In this document: one piece after another, positions 34,467 to 35,934 of the stretch
Layout: each line of letters begins with the position of its first letter
How positions within the stretch are numbered: position 1 is the stretch's first letter
NCBI GenBank assembly: GCA_902573585.1
Contig: CACGKH010000006.1
Location: 1 to 48,741 of the forward strand
Length of the DNA: 48,741 nt
Direction: 5' to 3'
From: an uncultured Pelagibacteraceae bacterium
Lineage (GTDB): Bacteria; Pseudomonadota; Alphaproteobacteria; Pelagibacterales; Pelagibacteraceae
Made by a program: the position numbers and the translations under genes
Notes under the pieces: model-generated
Told to the model about the DNA's origin: nothing
What the model saw: the letters and a program-made list of their open reading frames with translations, nothing else
Databases searched by the model: none

Positions 34467-34582
34467 TTTAGTAAAATATTTGGTTATAAAGCGCATAAAC
34501 ATTAACTTTTTTACACACTTTATTTATAAAAATTTTTTTTTAGTTTTATTTTTTTTTTTAAATTTTAACTTTAATTAAAGAA

Positions 34583-34639
34583 TTGACATAACGCGTATAA
34601 AAAAATAAAAATAATGTAATAGCGAATCATTTTGATTCG
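34583..34639 (+). promoter_or_regulatory. Promoter -35 (TTGACA) and leader hairpin (CGAATCA-TTT-TGATTCG) of the K/R-rich microprotein gene
   Basis: TTGACA 34583-34588; perfect 7-bp inverted repeat 34623-34629/34633-34639; -10 is weak/ambiguous. Confidence 0.5.
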
Positions 34640-34662
34640 TTTAACTAAAAAGGGAGCTAAAG

Positions 34663-34740
34663 ATGCCTAAGAGAAGAAAAAAAGCAAAGAAGGCTAAGAA
34701 AAAAGCTAAGAAAAAAGCTAAGAAAAGAAGAAGAAGATAG
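34663..34740 (+). CDS. 25-aa ultra-basic microprotein MPKRRKKAKKAKKKAKKKAKKRRRR (missing from supplied track)
   Basis: AGGGAG Shine-Dalgarno-like site, ATG 34663, TAG 34738-34740, own hairpin terminator; 19 of 25 residues are K/R. Confidence 0.75.
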   Translation: MPKRRKKAKKAKKKAKKKAKKRRRR

Positions 34741-34760
34741 TTACTTAGTATTCTTTATTA

Positions 34761-34804
34761 AAAACGCTTCTCATAACGATTTACGTGTGAGAGGCGTTTT
34801 TTTT
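34761..34804. terminator. Intrinsic terminator, probably bidirectional, between microprotein gene and carD
   Basis: AAAACGCTTCTCA / TGAGAGGCGTTTT stem (one G-T), T run on the right, A run on the left. Confidence 0.85.
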
Positions 34805-35651
34805 AATCTTCTAAAGGTTCACTTTCAGTTTCAGAAAGTGGTTCATCTACAGGAATTTCGCTAGCAGTTGTTTTTTCAGGCGCAGGAACTTTTACCTGTC
34901 CATCTAAATTTCTTTTTAGAGCTTTATTAAGTTTTTTTTGCGTGTCTTCTAAAGATAAGTTTAAAATTATTTGAAATTCCATCAAGATTCTGTCGTATGC
35001 TTTTTCAAAAAGTTGTCGTTCACTATAAGATTGATCAACCATCAAATCATCTCCTTTATTTAAATCTCTTACTACTTCTGCTAATTCATAAATTTTTCCA
35101 GATGAAATTTTGGCTTCATATTCTTGTGCACGTCTACTCCACATAGATCGTTTAATCTTTGGTTTACTTTTAAGAATTGAAATACATTTATTTACCTGAT
35201 TGATTGTTGCAAGAGGTCTTAGGTGTAACTGCTTGTTAACTGGAACCATTCCGTTTGCTTTATCTTTTTCAAATTTGATGATGTAAGTTTCGACATCTAT
35301 TCCACCTATATTTATTTTTTTAAATTCTGTTATTTGGCCAACTCCGTGTTTAGGATAAACCACGAAGTCTTTGATCTTATACTCTCTTTTCTCAGTTTCC
35401 TGTTTTTTTACCTTTTTGATTTCAGGCTTTACTTCATTGCTTTTTGAAATTCTTAAATTATCTGATTTATTCTCTACTTTTTCCTCAGGTTTTTTTGTAG
35501 TAATTTTTTTAATCTTTGATTTTTTTAACTTATTATTCTTTAATAAAGATTTTTTTACCTTAGCTCTTTTAGCTCTAGTTTTTTTTACTTTTTTTTTATT
35601 TTTGTTTTTAAAGGTTTTCTTTAAAATATTTTTCAAACTTATCTTGCTCAT
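34803..35651 (-). CDS. carD: CarD/CdnL family transcriptional regulator with long Lys-rich N-terminal extension (ORF open to 35693)
   Basis: [51 protein letters not shown]-terminal ~90 aa extremely Lys-rich; start uncertain, overlaps fdxA 3' end. Confidence 0.88.
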
Positions 35652-35934
35652 CTTTAAATTTTTCATGATCCGCAGGTGGATCTTTTTTTTCACTAATGTT
35701 TGGCCAGATTTCAGAATACTCTTTATTGATTTCTAACCACTTTTCGTAACCAGGTTCAGTGTCAGCTACTATGGCATCGACCGGACATTCAGGCTCACAA
35801 ACGCCACAATCTATACACTCATCCGGTTTAATTACAAGCATATTTTTACCTTCATAGAAGCAATCTACTGGACACACATCAACGCAATCCATCAGCTTAC
35901 ATTTAATACATTTTTCATTAACTATGTAGGTCAT
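35608..35934 (-). CDS. fdxA: Ferredoxin, 7Fe-8S type (FdxA)
   Basis: [45 protein letters not shown]. Confidence 0.95.

Follow-up and report, generated by a model that had tools for sequence, protein, structure and literature searches.

Histone H1-like proteins and protein tails of bacteria, such as the C-termini of Pseudomonas AlgP and PhaF and Chlamydia Hc2, are low-complexity sequences rich in Lys and Ala and, in some cases, in Pro. The KPAA-repeat tails of AlgP were reported to bind DNA, to resemble the H1 tail, and to vary in repeat number (PMC9239181), and repeat-number variation is also reported for Hc2 (PMC2848022). In the mycobacterial HU protein MDP1/HupB, an H1-like tail is fused to the HU fold, and this disordered basic C-terminal region is reported to organize the genome (PMC5974015). 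Here, we show that a free-standing gene encoding a Lys/Arg/Ala-rich microprotein occurs throughout the sampled Pelagibacterales. Judged by its composition and its longer orthologs, this peptide is probably a minimal histone H1-tail-like polycation, which would bind DNA and condense nucleic acids.

The window, i.e., the whole stretch of 48,741 nucleotides analyzed here, originates from an uncultured Pelagibacteraceae bacterium. The microprotein gene lies convergent with carD/cdnL, and the locus comprises the following features:

34583..34588, + strand: -35 hexamer TTGACA; TTGAC(A) is kept across two families in almost every orthologous locus
34606..34611, + strand: probable -10 element TAAAAA, read from the sequence, with a 17-nt spacer
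34623..34639, + strand: promoter-proximal inverted repeat or 5' leader hairpin CGAATCA-TTT-TGATTCG, perfect over 7 bp
34624-34628 and 34634-34638: GANTC sites, one per arm of the leader inverted repeat
34651..34656, + strand: ribosome-binding site AGGGAG; conserved GGGAGCTAAAG ahead of the ATG
34663..34740, + strand: microprotein gene, 25 aa, Lys/Arg/Ala, MPKRRKKAKKAKKKAKKKAKKRRRR; conserved, predicted coding gene
34764..34804, no strand assigned: bidirectional intrinsic terminator common to the microgene and convergent carD; 12-bp stem ACGCTTCTCATA/TGTGAGAGGCGT followed by T8
34803..35693, - strand: carD/cdnL, convergent neighbor and positional anchor; matches to Pfam CarD_TRCF_RID and CarD_C

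The 25-aa peptide contains 13 K, 6 R, and 4 A, with a single Pro, at residue 2. Its gene is the only ATG-initiated ORF of at least 20 aa with at least 70% K+R in the whole window, and no such ORF was generated in 40 windows simulated to match its dinucleotide content. An earlier note on this DNA had described the ORF, its product, and its composition exactly as we found them, and the TTGACA hexamer, the AGGGAG motif, and the strong terminator that it listed were confirmed as well, at 34583, 34651, and 34764-34804, respectively. A promoter scan instead paired TTGACA with AAAAAT (18-nt spacer; 10 of 12 matches), and the run TAAAAATA in the -10 region is kept in much of genus g1. Of 116 loci, 91 contain the ribosome-binding motif AGGGAGCTAAAG. 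The terminator hairpin at 34764-34797, followed by T8, has a folding energy of -22.9 kcal/mol (z -6.7) and is kept in orthologous loci with changes in the stem; a strict terminator scan did not include it among its calls. An Rfam search gave no match at the microgene locus, and the survey of structured RNAs in Pelagibacter by Meyer et al. 2009 names no carD-flanking intergenic region in its Table 1 (GC-rich regions) and leaves CarD unmentioned (PMC2704228). In the neighboring CarD/CdnL, the RID domain is itself preceded by an N-terminal extension of approximately 90 aa that is very rich in Lys and resembles an H1 tail (35400-35693, - strand), and Lys-rich extensions of different sequence are also found in CarD of other Pelagibacteraceae genera.

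Since protein searches of whole genomes fail with low-complexity queries, we gathered Pelagibacteraceae loci by synteny, using carD as the anchor. Whole-genome searches with the microprotein alignment A1 or with an 85-aa form from the sister family missed even known copies owing to composition correction, and their negative results were set aside. A scan of viral_contigs with A1 gave 204 pattern matches, none of them a confirmed relative, which is a weak result for a low-complexity query. A K/R-rich ORF convergent with carD was detected in 137 of 140 parsed loci (116 distinct, from many genera). As for the exceptions, the L086 sequence stops short of the site, and L031 and L130 were both cut from the same genome (G006), in which an extra A in a run of eight breaks the C-terminus; this shift of frame ahead of the Arg tail may stem from faulty assembly or from a genuine frameshift or slippage event. 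ATG and stop were present in 116/116 analyzed loci, with all length changes in frame. The encoded proteins range from 19 to 58 aa, most of them measuring 22 to 30 aa and those of nearly all genera 19 to 38 aa. Their plan is constant: M-[A/P]-K-R-R-K... is followed by a KKKA core, in which Ala is mostly spaced every 3 to 4 residues, and by an Arg-rich end, with a mean of 3.2 Arg among the last four residues. Thus, the start codon, the stop codon, and the basic composition, on whose conservation in relatives the earlier note had staked its claim beforehand, are kept family-wide, which supports its view of a stand-alone, deliberately expressed microprotein gene. No K-rich ORF was found after carD in 40 further alphaproteobacterial carD flanks (GC 0.28 to 0.69; one flank of just 243 nt) or in 20 loci of Maricaulis, Sphingomonas, Hyphomonas, and others, and the gene is therefore a Pelagibacterales feature at this place.

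The pattern of substitution and codon usage indicates that the 25-aa ORF did not arise by chance but is a gene that is translated, and that its protein sequence is under strong purifying selection. The identical 25 aa are encoded by 30 distinct loci, which differ at six bases, all synonymous third positions. Single-base codon variants pooled over the length classes comprised 79 synonymous changes, with 20.4 expected under random change, and 45 nonsynonymous ones, including 33 K<->R and 7 P<->A exchanges; these pooled counts are not independent, as the loci are related. Counts on carD trees, which allow for kinship, gave by parsimony 17 synonymous and 2 nonsynonymous changes in the 25-aa group, the latter both Pro2 to Ala (P < 1e-6 for 17 of 19 even with all mutations being transitions, approximately one third of which are synonymous). 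The 27-aa group showed 19 synonymous and 24 nonsynonymous changes, 19 of the 24 being K<->R, and the 30-aa group 8 and 16, respectively, a ratio in part due to repeat shifts blurring the ungapped comparison.

Runs of at least nine A occur in 3 of 116 microgenes, versus approximately 66% of synonymous-codon shuffles. AAG accounts for 30% of their Lys codons, compared to 11.5% in genes of the window and 15.7% in a ribosomal-protein cluster, and GCT has a share of approximately 77%, compared to 45% in this cluster. High expression as the source of the codon bias is not supported by the values of the ribosomal-protein cluster. The Lys-rich carD N-terminus showed no A-run avoidance, and the avoidance is therefore not general to Lys-rich genes. 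Protection from slippage of polymerase or ribosome on poly-A is most easily understood for a frame that is translated. Synonymous-only variation, in-frame length changes, and A-run avoidance are coding signatures that also argue against the element being mainly a small RNA or regulatory leader with an incidental ORF. The conserved 5' inverted repeat and terminator and the lack of a same-strand gene downstream ahead of the terminator would fit such an RNA; however, the ORF is retained across genera in which the leader stem differs or lies elsewhere, and we consider this explanation, largely refuted as it is, extremely improbable. A non-coding RNA alone is ruled out by the coding statistics, and a leader peptide or attenuator by the missing downstream gene.

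At the same position, genus g12 (L118, L123) encodes proteins of 50 to 58 aa with PAKK/KPAAKK/KAPAKK repeats, e.g., ...KKKPAAKKRKPAAKKKAPAKKRKPAKKKTAKKRKR. The sister family within the order (f2; L162-L176) has, in the same convergent place, a gene for a protein of 40 to 99 aa (MEELKVIFAKARKKAKKKAAPKKK...KRKPAKKK...RKKR), rich in KKAAPKKK/KRKPAKKK and AAPKKK repeats. Upstream of this gene lie TTGACA, a GAATC that begins 39 to 41 nt further along, an inverted repeat, and a ribosome-binding site rich in G. Although the proteins are not alignable with statistics, the same position and the same leader make orthology likely, and the SAR11 microprotein is best read as a putative pared-down ortholog of the H1-tail-like polycation of the sister family. 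The gene beyond the microgene, identified by sequence reading, encodes an acyl-CoA synthetase in Pelagibacteraceae (f1) and a tRNA-binding-domain-like protein, often together with rpoH, in f2. The presence of an rpoH-like gene after carD in Maricaulis and Kordiimonadaceae as well suggests that the placement of rpoH near carD is ancestral and that the acyl-CoA synthetase gene arrived later.

Like H1-like proteins, the repeat-bearing orthologs of g12 and the sister family contain KPAA/AAPKKK-like repeats and have no hydrophobic core, and the range of lengths in the two families (19 to 58 aa in Pelagibacteraceae and 40 to 99 aa in the sister family) recalls the natural repeat-number variation of Hc2 and AlgP. 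Unlike AlgP, PhaF, and Hc2, the SAR11 form consists of the tail alone, without an N-terminal domain, is Arg-rich at both ends, and usually lacks Pro past residue 2; moreover, its gene is order-wide, has a fixed place beside carD, and gives no detectable sequence match. It also differs from MDP1/HupB, where the tail is part of an HU-fold protein, in being free-standing. The peptide carries a charge of approximately +19 in 25 residues, with Arg at both ends of a (KKKA)n core. It may be disordered, or helical upon binding, and would coat and neutralize chromosomal DNA, possibly also RNA or polyphosphate, and help nucleoid condensation in these very small, AT-rich cells. Action through charge is proposed to explain why the protein stays basic although its length and its number of repeats drift. 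Two aspects speak against an H1-like reading of the 20- to 25-aa forms: a polybasic peptide could equally bind ribosomes, polyphosphate, or membranes, and no H1-like protein known to us is nearly as short as these forms. Furthermore, a role driven by charge alone would not require the 25-mer to be invariant in 30 loci, and this invariance mildly favors a specific partner.

Small basic ribosomal proteins such as eL41 (25 aa) of eukaryotes and archaea and bTHX of bacteria resemble the SAR11 peptide in size and Lys/Arg content. The invariant 25-mer and the Ala spacing of 3 to 4, which suits a helix, would likewise befit a lineage-specific ribosomal or ribosome-associated microprotein of this kind, which would occupy a groove of the rRNA as a short basic helix. 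However, eL41 and bTHX are fixed in length and sequence, whereas the SAR11 and sister-family protein varies approximately five-fold in length with repeat expansion, unlike an occupant of a fixed rRNA site. Its gene lies away from ribosomal-protein operons, the peptide has no Pfam match, and COX24/AURKAIP1 (PF08213) is absent in 21 relatives. We thus regard a ribosomal role as unlikely. Among the roles offered by the earlier note, the ribosome-associated peptide accordingly ranks lower, and the repeat-bearing orthologs favor the H1-tail mimic or nucleic-acid-condensing polycation as the putative function. Selection on charge only, as seen in the K<->R exchanges, fits any polyanion, and the H1-like AlgP localizes to and spaces polyphosphate granules (PMC9239181). 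A polycation without a direct role in the nucleoid, serving instead another polyanion such as polyphosphate granules, RNA condensates, or the surface of a membrane, is nevertheless quite unlikely in our estimate, considering that AlgP has a separate 124-aa N-terminal domain, which is missing from the SAR11 peptide.

Neither the short nor the long forms matched any Pfam or NCBIfam profile, including the H1-like/Hc1/Hc2 profiles, composition-biased queries scoring poorly in such searches, and the protein is therefore not filed as a member of the H1-like sequence families. The two forms compared with PDB gave no match. We found no description of the microprotein in the literature, most subscription papers lying outside the search, so its novelty is provisional. 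SAR11 ranks with the most abundant groups of bacteria in the sea, and our literature search retrieved no paper on how its genome is fitted into cells this small. A polycation gene that spans the order, is under strong selection, and is easily missed for its size might provide a direct and testable handle on this process. The gene would also illustrate how far an H1-like tail can shrink and yet stay under selection, with an identical 25-mer in 30 loci and repeats coming and going elsewhere. If confirmed, the peptide would join the smallest nucleoid proteins known.

The leader inverted repeat may act at the DNA level or at the RNA level. The perfect 7-bp repeat claimed in the earlier note is real and occurs once per genome where found, but it does not behave as a simple covarying RNA element: its fold is moderate (-8.5 kcal/mol, z -2.2), and the pairing differs between genera. 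The covariance check that had been proposed gave weak support because the stem is nearly invariant, its classical form varying only from G-C to G-U at pair 2 (8/69); the pair just outside is A-U, G-U, or G-C and is paired in 64/69. The 5' arm CGAATCA is kept across the family, and in 106 of the 109 loci that could be measured, GAATC starts 41 to 42 nt past the first T of TTGACA. In L114, L115, L117, L118, L123, L124, and L131, the stem relocates (e.g., TCACTTAA...TTAAGTGA) while CGAATCA stays put, and in L088-L090 the 3' GANTC is lost and a shorter or wobble stem retained.

GANTC was present in 113/113 leaders, 96 of which contain two, against approximately 0.10 expected per 75 nt; overall, the motif is scarce, with 66 sites in the 48.7 kb of the window. 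GcrA (PF07750) is encoded in 18 of 21 relatives' genomes, including that of the window (G000). As a lead only, the promoter-proximal GANTC pair suggests replication-linked timing via CcrM/GcrA, and caution is advised by a comparative study in which few probable GcrA targets proved to be conserved in Ca. P. ubique (PMC7987155). It is conceivable, albeit rather unlikely, that the whole picture holds, namely, an order-wide, previously undescribed, free-standing H1-tail-like chromatin peptide, brought to approximately 20 to 30 residues by genome streamlining and, through its GANTC-paired promoter, made in step with replication via GcrA/CcrM, like eukaryotic histones. In L115, L117, L118, L123, L124, L131, and L162-L176, a CTCC/CCTC segment, absent in the window's own genus, precedes the ribosome-binding site; it could pair with GGAG/GGGG and thus form a possible translation switch.
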